Assembly: GCF_003711225.1 (NCBI RefSeq)
Contig: NZ_CP031030.1
Span: 3,720,001-3,784,000, forward strand
Length of the DNA stretch: 64,000 nucleotides
Direction of reading: 5' to 3'
Source: Runella sp. SP2
GTDB taxonomy: Bacteria; Bacteroidota; Bacteroidia; Cytophagales; Spirosomataceae
Below, piece by piece: positions 14,712 through 62,715 of the stretch. The position numbers and the translations under genes are program-made. Below the pieces are notes generated by a model. It ran no database searches. It saw only the letters and a list, made by a program, of their open reading frames with translations, and was not told the origin of the DNA. Every line of letters starts with the position of its first letter. Position 1 is the stretch's first letter.

Positions 14712-16562
14712 ATGTCCCGAATTTTAGTCTTTCTTGGGGTCATTTTGTGTGCGCTTTCATCCACCCAAGCACAACAAAAAGCTGCCGCAAGCAAAATAGA
14801 TAGTTTAGCCAAGCATTTTTATTCTGCCAAAACGAATGCCTCAAAAATTCAGGTAATGCTCAACGCGCCCAAACGAATTGATGCGTATTTTGAAAAACCT
14901 GACCCTATTATAGACCTCTACCAAAAAGCACTTAAAATAGCAAAAAGTAGGGATGACAAAAAAAGCATCATCTCTTTTTTGATAGAGATAGCCCATCTTA
15001 AGATGTACACTGTTTTGGATGAGCCACAAGCATTCAGCCTATATTCGCAAGCTTTAAAATATGCTGAAGAAACAAATGACTTCGCCCTCTGCGCCCAAAT
15101 ATGCAAAGAAATGGCGACCATTAGCGAACATCAAAACTTCAAGGCTGAAATGTATAAATATTTGTTGAAGTCTGTCGAATATACCGAAAAATCGCCAATT
15201 GCTTTTTTGAACGCTTATAAGTGGCTGAAATACATGTACTTAGAAGACAACCGAATAGATGATGCCCTAAAAATCAGCAATCAGTGTATAAAGCATGTCA
15301 ATGAGCGCTCAGCCTCAGTAGAACAGAAAGCATTGGCTTATGGATATTTGTATGAAGTCTTGAAGAAAATACCTAGCAAAAAAGAAGAAGCCAAGACGTG
15401 CCGGAAGCGAACCGTGGCATTCCTAAAGAATGTAAAAGAGGAGAGTGCATATGATCATTTAGAGGATATAGCTACGGTTTGTTATGAGGTGGAGCAATAT
15501 GAATTAGCTATTGAATTTGCAAGCCGTATTTTTAGCCGATCAAGCGTTAATAAGCACATTGTGCTCAATAAAATGCTTTGTTATAAGATAATTGCTGATT
15601 CGTACGAGCGGCTCGGGCAGTACCAAAAAAGTTTAGAGAATTACAAAAAATATTCGGAGCTATATGTAAATTTTTTAAAATCTACGGTAAGTTTAGAGTC
15701 AGGCAGAAAAGTAATTCGAGCCGAAGGCGAACGTAACCTGCTGATGAAGCAAAACGAGGTAGAAAAAGAGCGATTTTATCGAAATTTGAGTTTTGCCATT
15801 GCGGCTTTTGTACTTCTTTTGGGAGGAGTTGTATTAGCTTTTTATAAACGTGAACAAAGACAAAAAAGGGAGTTAACCCAACTCAACGCCACCAAAGACA
15901 AACTCTTCGCCATCCTCTCGCACGACCTGCGCTCGCCCGTGGGCGTCCTCGAAAACAACGTCATGCTCACCCATTGGGGAGCACTGACCCAAGAGGAATT
16001 TGTTGAAGCTACCCAAAGTTTGGGACAAGAAATTAGACAAGTAAGAACCATGCTCGACAACGTACTGCATTGGTCTATTTCGCAACTTGGGGGCATGAAA
16101 CCAAACCCAAAAACAACTTATGTCTTGCCCATCATTGAGGCTGAAACCAAACTATTATACGCCAGTGCCGAAGCCAAAAGGATAAAAATAACCAGTCTCA
16201 TTGCGCCTCAAGCGCAGTTGGTGATTGATTCAAACCATTTGGCCATCATCATCAGAAATTTGCTGCAAAATGCCATCAAATTTACCCCTGCTCAAGGAGA
16301 AATCAGCATAAAAAGTACCGAAAAAGGAAAGCAATTCCAGCTCGAAATCAAAGACACTGGGATGGGAATCTCCCAAGAAAGAGTGCGTAAGTTGTTTACC
16401 ATTAACGAAAAATCTTCTCAGCAAGGTACTTCCCAAGAAAAGGGGACGGGGCTAGGATTGGTCTTGGTGAAAGAATTAGTAGAGGCCAATAAGGGAACCA
16501 TAGAAATCGAAAGTGAGCTAGGTAAAGGGACTACATTTTTCATCACGTTTCAGCAATCTTAA
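14712..16562 (+). CDS. TPR-containing membrane sensor histidine kinase (kinase 2)
   Basis: 616 aa from the ATG at 14712. An in-frame TTG at 14688 is rejected because the signal peptide MSRILVFLGVILCA starts at the ATG, exactly as in kinase 3. Signal peptide about 1-20, TPR-like sensor about 25-340, transmembrane helix about 360-382, HisKA with H404 in ILSHDLRSPVG, HATPase_c with NLLQNAIKF and GTGLGLVLVKE. The sensor half resembles kinase 3, while the catalytic half is nearly identical to kinase 1, so this gene is a mosaic of its neighbours. It is presumably co-transcribed with kinase 1 (gap 43 bp). Confidence 0.92.
   Translation: MSRILVFLGVILCALSSTQAQQKAAASKIDSLAKHFYSAKTNASKIQVMLNAPKRIDAYFEKPDPIIDLYQKALKIAKSRDDKKSIISFLIEIAHLKMYTVLDEPQAFSLYSQALKYAEETNDFALCAQICKEMATISEHQNFKAEMYKYLLKSVEYTEKSPIAFLNAYKWLKYMYLEDNRIDDALKISNQCIKHVNERSASVEQKALAYGYLYEVLKKIPSKKEEAKTCRKRTVAFLKNVKEESAYDHLEDIATVCYEVEQYELAIEFASRIFSRSSVNKHIVLNKMLCYKIIADSYERLGQYQKSLENYKKYSELYVNFLKSTVSLESGRKVIRAEGERNLLMKQNEVEKERFYRNLSFAIAAFVLLLGGVVLAFYKREQRQKRELTQLNATKDKLFAILSHDLRSPVGVLENNVMLTHWGALTQEEFVEATQSLGQEIRQVRTMLDNVLHWSISQLGGMKPNPKTTYVLPIIEAETKLLYASAEAKRIKITSLIAPQAQLVIDSNHLAIIIRNLLQNAIKFTPAQGEISIKSTEKGKQFQLEIKDTGMGISQERVRKLFTINEKSSQQGTSQEKGTGLGLVLVKELVEANKGTIEIESELGKGTTFFITFQQS
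15882..16562 (+). repeat. Homogenised kinase-domain block, copy in kinase 2
   Basis: Gap-free partner of 13988-14668. The first 230 or so bp, up to the codons for GGMKPNPK, are also closely similar in kinase 3 (from 17812). Kinase 3 diverges after that point. Confidence 0.85.
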
Positions 16563-20596: not shown

Positions 20597-21050
20597 GTGC
20601 GTTCGGATACTAAATGACGTGCGTTCGGATACTCATATCCGAACGAAATCGACGAAATCGGGAGGTTGTGAGCAACCTCCTGCACAATGTGCGTTCGGAT
20701 ACTTATATCCGAACGAAATCTGCGAAATCGGGAGGTTGTGAGCAACCTCCTGCACAACGTGCGTTCGGATACTCATATCCGAACAAAATCGACTAAATCG
20801 GGAGGTTGTGAGCAACCTCCTGCACAACGTGCGTTCGGATACTCATATCCGAACAAAATCGGCGAAATCGGGAGGTTGTGAGCAACCACCTGCACAATGT
20901 GCGTTCGGATACTCATATCCGAACAAAATCGACGAAATCGGGAGGTTGTGAGCAACCTCCTGCACAACGTGCGTTCGGATACTTATATCCGAACGAAATC
21001 GGCGAAATCGGGAGGTTGTGAGCAACCTCCTGCACGGCGTGCAACCTCCA
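20597..21050. repeat. Tandem array of 70-bp REP-like double-hairpin units (array 1)
   Basis: Six units start at 20619, 20689, 20759, 20829, 20899 and 20969 with an exact 70-bp period; a broken unit begins at 20597 and a degenerate tail ends near 21050. Each unit holds two perfect hairpins. The first has arms GTTCGGATA/TATCCGAAC with loop CTCA (CTTA in units 2 and 6). The second has arms GGAGGTTG/CAACCTCC with loop TGAG; one arm is mutated in unit 4. The loops are reverse complements, so the unit resembles a pair of REPs in opposite orientation, as in a BIME. The second stem recurs in array 2 at 59743-61668. Confidence 0.93.
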
Positions 21051-21564: not shown

Positions 21565-21602
21565 ATACCTTCCCGAAAGTTTCAGAACTTTCGGGAAGGT
21601 AT
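21565..21602. promoter_or_regulatory. Long perfect palindrome in a divergent intergenic region
   Basis: Arms of 17 bp (ATACCTTCCCGAAAGTT and its complement) flank the loop TCAG. It sits between the leftward lipoprotein start (21525) and the rightward WYL regulator start (21638), so it cannot be a terminator for either. Two further copies of the 15-bp core lie at 23101 and 23746. It is either an operator or a dispersed REP-like element. Confidence 0.6.
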
Positions 21603-52304: not shown

Positions 52305-52668
52305 GTGGTTGCATTTGTACTCAGTTGGGCCTCCAACTGAGTACAAACCAAAAATTACAAATACTTTCATTTAAGTTTCAAATAACTCATTTTTTACATC
52401 AAATTTTGTTATTTTACAGAAATTTAGTATAATATTTTAAAGAATATTGAGTATTTTCCGAAAATTACTTATTTTTAACTTTGAGCATAATTACTTATTT
52501 TGTATGTTTGATGTACCAAATCGGTGCAGCGTGGCGGCGCTCAACCGATGCAGGTAGCACAGTCTTTAACGAAACCCGTTGAACGAGGAATCGTTATTGG
52601 ATGTACCCTATTGCATCGCTTCAGGCCTTACGCTGGTTTCATGTTCTACTTTTAACCAACAAAGCGCA
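52305..52668. other. Intergenic region before narK with hairpin and direct repeats
   Basis: 364 bp without genes. It holds the stem-loop at 52314-52347 and an AT-rich stretch with two 13-bp direct repeats AATTACTTATTTT (52463 and 52489). An internal promoter for the narK-nas genes is likely here. A run of frame continues upstream of the narK ATG but has no coding character. Confidence 0.6.
52314..52347. terminator. Strong hairpin after the ATPase gene, no U run
   Basis: Perfect 15-bp arms TTTGTACTCAGTTGG and complement around GCCT, 10 bp past the stop. No T tract follows, so it may be a 3'-end stabiliser or a partial terminator separating the importer from narK. Confidence 0.6.
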
Positions 52669-58365: not shown

Positions 58366-59748
58366 ATGCCATACCTCCGCATCGCTACCCAAGGTGGGGT
58401 CATTACCCCCGACGAGCTTCAACGTTTGGCCATGTTAGCCAAAAAATGGGCTTTGGGCAAAATTGAAGTTGGTTTTCGCCAAGATTTGCTCGTTCCTTGC
58501 ACCGATTCTCAACGCTCGTTGCTTCGATCGCAATTAATGTCGGAGGGGTTTGGAGTAGAAGAAACCGCGGCTGTGCATCCCAACATCGTTTCGTCGTTGG
58601 TAGCTCAAAATATCTTTCCCCAGCTCTCTTGGCTTCGGTCGGGCGATTACCTTGATATTTTGGATGAATTTACCTTTCGACCACGTCTCAAAATTAACCT
58701 CATCGACCCCACGCAGGAGTTGATTCGACCGTTGACGGGGGAGCTTAATTTTATCGCTTCCCCTACGCCCTCATTTTGGTACTTGGTGATCAATTTATCC
58801 GAGTTAGGGGGCATTCATGTCTGGCCCAAACTTATTGATGGGGAACAAATTGCGGCCTGGGTCCAGCACATTGAAAAAATATGGTTGGAAAATCCACCGC
58901 CTAATTGTTCTTTTGAAGAACTGTACGGGAATGTTTCAAAAGCGTTTACGGGACGAACGCGCCCCATTCAGAAAGAACTAAAGCTTACACCCAAACCCTA
59001 CCCGCACCACGAGGGTATTTACCGCTACGATGACCGCTATTGGATGGGGTTATACCAGCGCGACAACGAGTTTGACACGGCTTTTTTAGAAGCCCTTTGT
59101 CAGCTTTGCATCAACACTAAAATCGGGCGTTTGTATCCGACACCTTTCAAAACATTCATCGTTCGCGATATACCAAAAGAGACGATTTATCAGTGGGAAA
59201 AACTCTTAGGAATCTGGGGGATACATACGCATTATTCGTCGCTCGAACTCAACTGGCAGCTCCCCGATGCTGACGCGTCGGCATTGCGCCTTAAAACCGA
59301 ACTGGTCGAAGCTTTTGAAAGACTGCGCATTCGGACATCTAGCCTTAGTTTTGGCATTGGTCACCGTAATGCCGAAACGACATCGACGATTGTCATTGAG
59401 CCATTATCGACGGAGTATCAGCGTTTTCGCGTAGTTCATTCTCCTGATTTTTACATTGGGAATACGGAATGGGAAGTTTTTGCGGGCGATGTTGCCCGTA
59501 AGAATCTCCCAGAAATTCTTCGACGCCTTACGCTGAAATACTACGAACAACTTTCGACGGATAAAAAGGCAAGTATCACCCGTAAAACGTCGGGAATAAA
59601 ACCCGCTCCTACCCAAAGCGTAATGCAGTGTAAGCACTGTCAGACGGTTGCGGATCTGCCACTTCCTTTACCTTCCTCTTATTTATGTTCACTTTGCGAT
59701 GCACCTGTGGCTGATTTTGTCGAAGTTGAATTGGAAATAGCGCCGTGA
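58366..59748 (+). CDS. Siroheme-less nitrite/sulfite-reductase-like protein with C-terminal rubredoxin domain
   Basis: 460 aa. Two NIR/SIR ferredoxin-like half domains are recognisable by strand pattern (GKIEVGFRQDLLVP at the N-terminus and KIGRLYPTPFKTFIVRDI later). Where active nitrite reductases have the cysteine pairs for siroheme/[4Fe-4S], this protein has none: the CPNxC position reads DPTQE (residues 114-118), and the first pair is also missing near residues 80-97. Residues 420-460 form a rubredoxin-like zinc/iron site with C422, C425, C441 and C444. It therefore probably carries electrons or acts as scaffold rather than reducing nitrite. Its TGA stop falls within the first degenerate repeat of hairpin array 2. 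Confidence 0.8.
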   Translation: MPYLRIATQGGVITPDELQRLAMLAKKWALGKIEVGFRQDLLVPCTDSQRSLLRSQLMSEGFGVEETAAVHPNIVSSLVAQNIFPQLSWLRSGDYLDILDEFTFRPRLKINLIDPTQELIRPLTGELNFIASPTPSFWYLVINLSELGGIHVWPKLIDGEQIAAWVQHIEKIWLENPPPNCSFEELYGNVSKAFTGRTRPIQKELKLTPKPYPHHEGIYRYDDRYWMGLYQRDNEFDTAFLEALCQLCINTKIGRLYPTPFKTFIVRDIPKETIYQWEKLLGIWGIHTHYSSLELNWQLPDADASALRLKTELVEAFERLRIRTSSLSFGIGHRNAETTSTIVIEPLSTEYQRFRVVHSPDFYIGNTEWEVFAGDVARKNLPEILRRLTLKYYEQLSTDKKASITRKTSGIKPAPTQSVMQCKHCQTVADLPLPLPSSYLCSLCDAPVADFVEVELEIAP

Positions 59749-60712
59749 TTTGGGCTCCTCAGCGTACGTGATTTCGGTTGCTCTACATATGTGATTTCGA
59801 TTTCTCAGCGTATGTGCTTTCGGTTTCTCAAAACCGAAACGACTGCCGCAATCTTGCAATAGGTTTCTCAAAACCTCGACTCAATCTTCACGAGGTTGTA
59901 AGCAGCCTCTACTTTGGTTTTGAGAAACCAAAGGCACACTCGCACCACGTGATTTCGGTTTCTCAAAACCGAAACAACTGCCGCAATCTTGCACAAGGTT
60001 TCTCAAAACCTCGGCTCAATCTTCACGAGGTTGTAAGCAACATCACACTTTGGTTTTGAGAAACCAAAGGCACACTCGCGCCACGTGCTTTCGGTTTCTC
60101 AAAACCGAAACGACTGCCGCAATCCTGCAAGAGGTTTCTCAAAACCTCGGCTCAGTCTTCACGAGGTTGTAAGCAACCTCTGCTTTGGTTTTGAGAAACC
60201 AAAGACACACTCGCACTACGTGGCTTTCGGTTTCTCAAAACCGAAACGACTGCCGCAATCTTGCAATAGGTTTCTCAAAACCTCGATTCAATCTTCACGA
60301 GGTTGTAAGCAACCTCTACTTTGGTTTTGAGAAACCAAAGGCACACTCGCACCACGTGCTTTCGGTTTCTTAAAACCGAAACGACTGCCGCAATCTTGCA
60401 ATAGGTTTCTCAAAACCTCGACTCAATCTTAACGAGGTTGTAAGCAACCTCACACTTTGGTTTTGAGAAACCAAAGGCACACTCGCACCACGTGCTTTCG
60501 GTTTCTTAAAACCGAAACGACTGCCGCAATCTTGCAATAGGTTTCTCAAAACCTCGACTCAATCTTAACGAGGTTGTAAGCAACCTCACACTTTGGTTTT
60601 GAGAAACCAAAGGCACACTCGCACCACGTGCTTTCGGTTTCTCAAAACCGAAACGACTACCGCAATCTTATGAACGATTACGACAACTCTTCACGAGGTT
60701 TCCCAAAAACCA
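59743..60712. repeat. REP-like hairpin array 2, left block (about 136-bp units)
   Basis: After a degenerate prefix, units start (at CGGTTT) at 59821, 59956, 60092, 60228, 60363, 60499 and 60635, the last breaking down towards the transposase gene. Each full unit has four hairpins. Arms and loops: TTTCGGTTT with CTCA (CTTA in units 5 and 6); AGGTTT or GAGGTTT with CTCA; GAGGTTG with TAAG; CTTTGGTTT with TGAG. Thus two face one way and two the other. The period is 135-136 bp, so apparent reading frames inside are not genes. Confidence 0.93.
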
Positions 60713-60761
60713 AGTGACTTTTTCAGCAAAGCAAGTATTACAGAGAATAAAAACTTGTTTT

Positions 60762-61304
60762 ATGGGAACAAAACGAATTTCTGGCTCAGAGGATGAACGC
60801 TGTTTTTTCATTACTACCTCCTGTTATCAACACAAGTTCTTATTACTAGATACGCAGGCATTTAATATTGTACTTGACAACTTTCGTTTCTATAATAAAC
60901 GTTACTCTGCACGACTCTTGGGATATGTGCTAATGAGTAATCATATTCATTTCATGCTATTTTTCGAAGACCGAAATTATTTATCAAAGTACCTTCGAGA
61001 TTTTAAAAAATATAGCTCCCTGCAACTACGCGCGCACATCTCACGATTTTATCCTCATATTTTACCTGAAATCCTGTATGAATATAGAAGTCAGCATTAC
61101 AAAATTTGGGACGATGAGTTTGATGATGTAGTAATTTACAGCAGGAAAATGTGCGAAATAAAGCTTGATTATATGCACAACAATCCAGTAAAAGCGGGTC
61201 TTGTGACAGAGCCAAGCGGTTATCTATTTTCGAGTGCTAAATTTTATGAAAACTGGAAGGTTAACATCCAATCTGAGCTTTTACATTACAGAGATGTTTT
61301 TTAA
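60762..61304 (+). CDS. REP-associated tyrosine transposase (RAYT, Y1_Tnp family)
   Basis: 180 aa from the ATG at 60762; a GTG at 60714 would start in array-flank sequence. The HUH metal-binding pair is H61/H63 in VLMSNHIHFMLF. The RAYT signature YMHNNPVKAGLV (137-148) holds candidate catalytic tyrosine Y137, and YLFSSAKFY near residue 153 matches the family tail. Family enzymes nick and join single-stranded DNA at REP hairpins and are thought to be domesticated single-copy relatives of IS200/IS605 transposases. Array blocks flank it on both sides, and its TAA is two bases from the next hairpin. The frame is intact. Confidence 0.92.
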   Translation: MGTKRISGSEDERCFFITTSCYQHKFLLLDTQAFNIVLDNFRFYNKRYSARLLGYVLMSNHIHFMLFFEDRNYLSKYLRDFKKYSSLQLRAHISRFYPHILPEILYEYRSQHYKIWDDEFDDVVIYSRKMCEIKLDYMHNNPVKAGLVTEPSGYLFSSAKFYENWKVNIQSELLHYRDVF

Positions 61305-61668
61305 ACGAGGTTGTGAGCAACCTCTGCTTTGGTTTTGAGAAACCAAAGGCACACTCACACCATGATTTCGGTTTCTCAGCATACGTGGCTTTCGGTTTCT
61401 CAAAACCGAAACGACTGCCACAATCTTGCAAGAGGTTTCTCAAAACCTCGGCTCAATCTTCACGAGGTTGTAAGCAACATCACACTTTGGTTTTGAGAAA
61501 CCAAAGGCACACTCACACCATGATTTCGGTTTCTCAGCATACGTGATTTCGGTTTCTCAAAACCGAAACGACTGCCACAATCTTGCAAGAGGTTTCTCAA
61601 AACCTCGACTCAATCTTCACGAGGTTGTGAGCAACCTCTAGCTTTGGTTTTGAGAAACCAAAGACACA
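61305..61668. repeat. REP-like hairpin array 2, right block
   Basis: It begins with the hairpin GAGGTTG/CAACCTC (loop TGAG) at 61307, two bases after the transposase stop. Further units, with TTTCGGTTT hairpins at about 61391 and 61548, are 157 bp apart because an extra half-hairpin (TTTCGGTTTCTCAGCATACG) is present. It ends at the stop codon of the leftward LuxE-like gene. Confidence 0.92.
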
Positions 61669-62715
61669 CTAAATCAACAAATTACACCCACGCACGTCCG
61701 AATTATCAAACCGCCCAATCACTTCAAATTGGGAAGAGGAATCACCAACAAATCGACCCAAATCTTGGGTTTCTAAAAATGAGCAAGAATCTAAGTTACC
61801 CAAATCAACCACATTGATACCGCCGTACCTCATTCCAAGCTGTGGGGAATCTGTTACAGAGAAAGGGTCATTTATATCTCTAAGTAGGATTCGCATCGTG
61901 CGAGAGGTCTCAAAAACCCCATCTCCCTTTGAATACGACTGTGACAAAAGCTCCGTCATTCCGTATTCCGAATGAATGTTTTCTAACCCAAAAGCCGACG
62001 TGAGCTCAGCGTGTACTTCTTCACGGAGCATTTCACGGCGGCGTCCCTTCATTCCGCCCGTTTCCATTACCACCAATTCGGGCAATTCCTTTAAAAACGA
62101 CAGGTCGTACTTCGACTCTGCTAAATCCAACAATGCAAACGTCACCCCCCACAAAATTACTTTCCGACCGTCGGGTTGTTGTACTAATTTTTTGAGTGTT
62201 GCTAATAGCTCATCTACATTATGCAAAAAGAACCCAGAGACAGGCGACTGCGTTTCTGCAATAAATTGTTGAACCATATACACCAACGAGGAGTTATTTC
62301 GTTCAAGATACGAAGGTAACAATGCCAACAGGTGAAAGTCAGAAAGTGAGCCGTAGCTTTTTTCAAAAATCTCGGTACTGATTTCATCATACCAGCCCAA
62401 GTCCGCCACCAAATGTCGGCTAGTTTGGGTTCCAGTTGTACCGCTACTTTCAAAAACTGTTTGTATATTGGGGGTCCCCGTCACTACTTGATGGTGTTTA
62501 AAGAAGCCAATCGGCAAAAACGGAACCAACGACATACGGTTAACTTGATCGGGGCGAATTCGCAAATGGGAAAGATACTGACGGTAAATGGGGCTATGAA
62601 CCGCCTGATAATGAAACACCTGCAAGGCAACCTCCTCAAACGTATCGGCCGTTAAGGTTCGTACAGCATTTCGTAAATTGGGCAAAATTGGCATTTTACT
62701 AGGGTCGAATTTCAA
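61669..62715 (-). CDS. LuxE/PaaK-type acyl-protein synthetase
   Basis: 348 aa. Adenylate-forming fold of the LuxE type: VFHYQAVHSPIYRQYL at the N-terminus, LVPFLPIGFFKHHQV, the ATP-binding FESSGTTGTQTSRH loop, HSEYGMTELLSQSYS and C-terminal LETQDLGRFVGD. LuxE family enzymes activate acyl groups as acyl-AMP and pass them to a protein or CoA. There is no lux operon here; in Bacteroidota such genes often stand alone and may serve lipid or secondary metabolism. The TAG stop lies at the array edge. Confidence 0.88.
   Translation of the reverse strand: MKFDPSKMPILPNLRNAVRTLTADTFEEVALQVFHYQAVHSPIYRQYLSHLRIRPDQVNRMSLVPFLPIGFFKHHQVVTGTPNIQTVFESSGTTGTQTSRHLVADLGWYDEISTEIFEKSYGSLSDFHLLALLPSYLERNNSSLVYMVQQFIAETQSPVSGFFLHNVDELLATLKKLVQQPDGRKVILWGVTFALLDLAESKYDLSFLKELPELVVMETGGMKGRRREMLREEVHAELTSAFGLENIHSEYGMTELLSQSYSKGDGVFETSRTMRILLRDINDPFSVTDSPQLGMRYGGINVVDLGNLDSCSFLETQDLGRFVGDSSSQFEVIGRFDNSDVRGCNLLI

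Follow-up and report, generated by a model that had tools for sequence, protein, structure and literature searches.

The source genome probably maintains a REPtron, in which a domesticated Y1 (HUH) transposase of the RAYT family, present in one copy, is accompanied by its own genome-wide REP-like elements; a tag and the hairpin apex would be read, and the outer stem would need only to be paired. Each element has a GTGN tag on the 5' side of a ~9-bp stem with a CTYA loop, lies between genes and often forms inverted pairs with a neighbour. An earlier note on this DNA had described one RAYT accompanied by many stem variants with a constant CTYA loop, a picture borne out by a single Y1_Tnp match and 486 pattern sites genome-wide.

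A single-copy RAYT embedded in hairpin arrays

The RAYT gene (60762..61304, + strand, 180 aa) lies in the 64-kb stretch of DNA analysed here (the window), where it is embedded in a hairpin array bordered by a NIR/SIR half-domain gene (58366-59748, + strand) on one side and a LuxE-like gene (61669-62715, - strand) on the other. Its product scores 96.6 bits against the NCBIfam equivalog NF047646 (REP-associated tyrosine transposase; cut-off 80) and 26.5 bits against PF01797, while the IS200 model reaches 17.6 bits, under its cut-off of 55. As in class 2 enzymes, an HUH motif (NHIH) is combined with a tyrosine motif ending in NP (YMHNNP), and residues H61, H63, Y137, N141 and P142 are invariant in an alignment of 43 RAYT sequences. 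The predicted structure (pLDDT 91.5) finds its best solved-structure match in 4er8, the E. coli RAYT-REP complex (E 7e-9). The gene provides the only Y1_Tnp match in the whole 7.6-Mb genome and is therefore single-copy, and, as is characteristic of the RAYT family, the repeats that flank it are also dispersed genome-wide (432 tagged sites). The closest named homologs, from R. defluvii (96% identical) and R. limosa (94%), place the source genome within Runella or beside it.

The left array (59814..60653, + strand) comprises six ~135-bp units, each built as tag-A(+) B(+) C(-) D(-)-tag, and closes with a final A hairpin; in the right array (61307..61667, + strand) C/D-type hairpin pairs alternate with A/B pairs at a spacing of ~157 bp. 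Representative elements are A (60085..60110, + strand; tag GTGC at 60085-60088, stem TTTCGGTTT, loop CTCA and right arm, in full GTGC-TTTCGGTTT-CTCA-AAACCGAAA), B (60131..60148, + strand; stem GAGGTTT, loop CTCA and a degenerate tag, CTGC or TTGC), C (60163..60180, - strand; stem GAGGTTG, loop CTTA, seen as TAAG on the + strand), which lacks a tag and follows D as its second hairpin at 22-23 nt, and D itself (60183..60208, - strand; stem CTTTGGTTT, loop CTCA, seen as TGAG on the + strand, with a GTGT or GTGC tag at its outer edge). The four hairpin types with CTCA or CTTA loops reported in the earlier note are all present, at 59818-60653 and 61307-61663 on the two sides of the RAYT gene. The same note had the array begin at 59743; complete hairpins do follow, from 59814 onwards, but the segment 59743-59815 (+ strand) holds incomplete copies, located at 59745-59815, with a tag or tag remnant, a left arm and a loop and no right arm, and these are not hairpins.

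Similar incomplete copies occur at 61363-61380 and 61521-61538. They stop at the loop and then run into the next tagged copy, as is also seen near position 15284 of another locus (L146, - strand), and breaks at the loop edge could be the mark of strand exchange there.

A second array (20618..21034, + strand; hairpins at 20621-21031), which has no RAYT of its own, is composed of 70-bp units of the form GTGC-GTTCGGATA-CTYA(+) ... GGAGGTTG-TGAG(-)-GCAC, and its main stem, GTTCGGATA, differs from those at the RAYT locus. Across the window, CTCA/TGAG and CTTA/TAAG together account for 43 of the 58 four-nucleotide loops on stems of at least 6 bp, every other loop being rare.

Genome-wide excess and arrangement of the elements

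The hairpins are real, genome-wide and far beyond chance. Genome-wide (7.6 Mb), the pattern GGTTNCTYANAACC occurs at 486 sites, whereas its reversed form occurs at 6, and its two orientations are evenly represented (235 and 251). A strand bias of CTYA sites relative to replication, suggested by a subset of the sites on each strand, was dropped in view of these totals. For an unselected sample we took 59 stretches of 20 kb (1.18 Mb), chosen blind to repeats and excluding one locus (L032) that had been picked for its array. Of the 130 four-nucleotide-loop hairpins found here with stems of at least 7 bp, 34 have the loop CTCA, spread over 14 separate kilobases, against 5 for the next most common loop and 1 in each of three shuffled sets that served as a Markov null; in the same 1.18 Mb, none of the loops of 3, 5 or 6 nt is comparably enriched. 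Both comparisons, 34 of 130 against 1 and 486 against 6, agree with the genome-wide excess of CTYA-loop hairpins anticipated earlier. Furthermore, the tagged pattern GTGN5-GGNTN-CTYA-NANCC occurs at 432 sites genome-wide and at none in the control, and the GTG tag and GGNTN stem combined with any four-nucleotide loop at 526 sites against 55, so that ~92% of the excess carries a CTYA loop.

The elements avoid coding sequence: only 6 of 45 sites fall inside open reading frames of at least 120 aa, although such frames cover 87.5% of the DNA, and the contexts are tandem or convergent, with 0 of 39 sites flanked by divergent genes. Inverted pairs with their tags outward are common, in both window arrays and in several sampled clusters, and single and direct tandem copies also occur. 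Twelve tagged hairpins are followed, after 22-23 nt, by another that shares the loop but has no tag and often ends in CGTG. The organisation is that of REPINs or BIMEs, with two inverted elements, tags outside, often in tandem.

Constant tag and apex, covarying mid-stem

To separate constant from variable positions, hairpins were aligned on the loop and positions counted outward from it. Three parts are constant: the loop (bases C, T, Y and A), the GGNTN of the inner stem, and GTG at positions -13 to -11. The inner stem is near-fixed, following the pattern GGNTN-CTYA-NANCC, with GG at -5/-4 and T at -2 in 119 of the 121 CTYA hairpins collected. GTG begins at exactly -13 in 33 of the 45 exact cores of the unselected sample, any other offset accounting for at most 6, and about a quarter of the hairpins have no GTG. 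The fourth tag base varies: of 87 unique hairpins, 31 carry GTGC, 12 GTGG, 12 GTGT and 7 GTGA, and 25 have other sequences. The elements accordingly depart from a strict REP definition by a 5' GT[AG]G, while agreeing with a broader one that asks for a short palindrome with a conserved tag at its 5' base. With the tag held at a fixed distance, the layout familiar from REPs, a hairpin preceded by a tag, therefore applies.

In a set of 42 hairpins, positions -6 to -9 vary in sequence and nevertheless pair in 41, 35, 23 and 26 cases, respectively, where 16, 12, 11 and 12 would be expected if the arms were independent, and the -6/+6 pair (41 of 42) includes all four standard pair types. No excess of pairing is found beyond -10 in these hairpins, pairing ending at -9/-10, and the variable part of the element is therefore the mid-stem. 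The view that stems vary through matched changes in both arms consequently holds for pairs -6 to -9 and fails for the near-fixed inner stem. Mismatches at -8/+8, mostly A-G or G-A, are common and recall the bulge of E. coli REPs.

The earlier note had suggested that the recognition constant may be the loop. That it is the only one is not supported, as the GTG tag at its fixed distance and the inner GGNT, both missed in that note, are about equally constant within the genome, and recognition by the loop only was rejected once the constancy of tag and inner stem had emerged. Loop and inner GGNT stem being equally constant, the separate shares of the two are not separable within this genome.

Copy number and orthologous sites among relatives

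Among 149 relatives examined, abundance of the CTYA pattern follows the RAYT clade. Counts of 485-576 are found in three genomes, the source genome among them, with an intact, 94-100% identical RAYT. Six Runella genomes in which the RAYT is partial or broken, or which have no close one, reach 29-87. G016, whose RAYT is 53% identical, has 69, G050 has 15, and the count is at most 5 elsewhere. High copy number is thus confined to genomes in which the clade is or was present, in accordance with the co-occurrence that had been foreseen, and the low counts where the RAYT has been lost look like remnants. Four genomes with no close RAYT (G010, G011, G012 and G050) have 15-73 CTYA sites, which look like leftovers from a time before the gene was lost.

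At the place orthologous to the second array, Runella defluvii carries 12 hairpins of the same two types and R. limosa 3, compared with 11 in the source genome. In R. limosa the GTTCGGATA hairpin is replaced by GTTTGGTTG, through three compensated pair changes that keep both the GTG and the CTCA loop. The difference in array size and stem type at this site may reflect movement of the elements, but recombination or gene conversion could also have caused it.

Loop class follows the enzyme phylogeny

In species whose RAYTs are 47-57% identical to that of the source genome, tag and CTYA loop usually persist while the stems differ. The elements of G016 read GTGG-TGTCAGTTT-CTTA and GTGG-TGTCGGTTT-CTCA; GTGG-TGTCAGTTT-CTTA also occurs in Spirosoma arboris, a Microscillaceae MAG has GTGC-TGTTGGATT-CTCA next to its RAYT, and G110, from another family, has GTGC-GTTCAGTTC-CTCA, tagged CTCA hairpins being few in that genome and showing no genome-wide excess over the control. 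Across these sister lineages the inner stem becomes AGTTT, AGGTT, AGTTC or GGATT with CTYA retained. In Spirosoma validum the CTTA loop is present and GTG is absent at -13. The loci of S. arboris, the Microscillaceae MAG and S. validum were examined after the tag-and-loop rule had been set, and most of them agree with it. An exception to CTYA is L056 (G051), where the RAYT is 51% identical, contains a stop codon and is flanked by hairpins with 3-nt loops (CCC, ACG).

We then mapped the hairpins onto a phylogeny of 43 RAYTs from Bacteroidota that share 26-96% identity with the source protein; across it, loop length tracks the enzyme phylogeny. The CTYA members form one clade (support 100/99), the members with 3-nt loops a second (96/93) and those with other 4-nt loops a third (100/99), and loop length changes 3 times on the tree, compared with a mean of 9.0 and a minimum of 5 in 500 shuffles with near-identical rows collapsed. 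In the third clade, a small sample of 20 hairpins from 12 loci, GGC stands at +11 to +13, which on the complementary strand reads as GCC from -13 to -11, and its distance to the loop is the same as that between GTG and loop in the CTYA elements. In the 3-nt-loop clade no clear tag is seen in either flank. We tentatively raise the possibility that Bacteroidota RAYTs all read a tag and, at a fixed distance from it, the hairpin apex. Each deep clade would have its own loop code (CTYA; 3-nt NCA; 4-nt, such as TTAT, on the tagged strand) and a clade-dependent tag, GTG or GCC, in either case occupying -13 to -11, while stems would turn over freely and one enzyme would keep a swarm of stem variants mobile.

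Proposed recognition and alternative explanations

The RAYT would most likely bind the folded single-stranded hairpin, probably on the lagging strand by analogy with related transposases. Judging from the positions that stay constant, it most likely reads GTG and the apex (the inner GGNT stem and the loop bases), with tag and loop a fixed distance apart, and its conserved tyrosine would nick nearby. The outer stem would only hold the fold and matter mainly by its pairing, so that many stem variants could stay substrates of one enzyme; such relaxed reading would let a single RAYT maintain, and presumably spread, them all.

An enzyme that reads the inner GGTT stem together with the tag, the loop being constant merely through recent shared ancestry of the copies, would also account for the near-invariance of GG at -5/-4 and T at -2 in the source genome. 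We regard this reading as unlikely, for sister lineages change the inner stem to AGTTT, AGGTT, AGTTC or GGATT while CTYA stays, and the loop class tracks the RAYT phylogeny. The stem variation might alternatively be neutral drift in dead copies whose pairing is kept only since most are recent, and the common, mostly A-G mismatches at -8/+8 are what such decay could leave behind; the four standard pair types at -6/+6, paired in 41 of 42 hairpins, and the compensated changes at the R. limosa orthologous site make this the least probable of the readings considered.

The extragenic position of the sites (6 of 45 in reading frames) and their absence between divergent genes (0 of 39) would also suit RNA-level elements, namely terminators, 3' stabilisers or sites for host proteins, to which the RAYT is incidental. 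We consider this very improbable, given that the pattern is abundant only in hosts of the RAYT clade, that its orientations are equally common (235 and 251) and that a single-stranded GTG tag and inverted pairing suit REPs; RNA-level roles may be secondary. Tag-plus-apex reading by the RAYT therefore remains our preferred explanation.

Relation to known systems

The earlier note held that a conserved stem is relied on in the cases described so far, which is contradicted by the group 3 TnpAREP enzymes from Marinomonas (Mb) and Stenotrophomonas (Sm): SELEX and mutagenesis show that loop bases are required and the stem is largely free (PMC8266576). The Mb enzyme needs a loop of T, T, a free third base and A, and the Sm enzyme needs G (PMC8266576). 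Loop reading combined with a GTAG guide has thus already been shown in vitro for group 3 (PMC8266576), and the idea of loop reading is not in itself new. What the sequences suggest as new is its extension to a Bacteroidota clade, with many stem variants per enzyme. As in group 3 (subclass 2.5), a 5' tetranucleotide stands beside a short, mostly perfect stem, the Mb loop parallels the Runella CTYA and stem pairing appears to count over stem sequence (PMC8266576). In contrast to that group, the tag is GTGN rather than GTAG, the RAYT belongs to another lineage and phylum, and many stem variants accompany one enzyme with the inner GGNT near-fixed.

With E. coli TnpAREP and its BIMEs (group 2) the system shares the fold (4er8), inverted pairs in tandem and several REP types per enzyme, whereas E. 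coli REPs need a bulge and an exact GTAG, and their loop is ignored (PMC8266576). For the Bacteroidetes TnpAREP of subclass 2.6 (group 5), the published structures are atypical, have no GT[AG]G and were spotted by eye (PMC6006769). Like these, the Runella system belongs to the Bacteroidota, has NHIH and a YIH[QN]NP-like YMHNNP, and is flanked by structures copied elsewhere in the genome (PMC6006769); the subclass is described by NH[LIV]H, WQ, YIH[QN]NP, occurrence in Bacteroidetes and an insertion between helix C and strand 4, and in a comparison of motifs and phylum with that description NHIH and the phylum fit, YMHNNP is near and WD replaces WQ. Unlike the atypical structures described for group 5, the Runella elements have a regular hairpin and GTGN at a fixed register. 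The source RAYT clade is probably the one reported with "atypical" REPs (PMC6006769), and our literature searches found no paper describing the Runella GTGN-CTYA elements.

RAYT recognition of REPs has been tested in vitro for only two groups, the Bacteroidota elements having been set aside as atypical. Hundreds of natural variants for one enzyme reveal which positions are free and which are fixed, and, with C, G, T or A as the fourth base of the tag, the proposed role of the tag as a guide in cleavage-site choice can be examined on natural variants.

Other hairpins in the window

Two further perfect hairpins have other loops. A 15-bp stem (TTTGTACTCAGTTGG) with loop GCCT at 52314-52347 is possibly a terminator, and a 17-bp stem (ATACCTTCCCGAAAGTT) with loop TCAG lies at 21565-21602, both of its arms being changed at the orthologous place in R. 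limosa.
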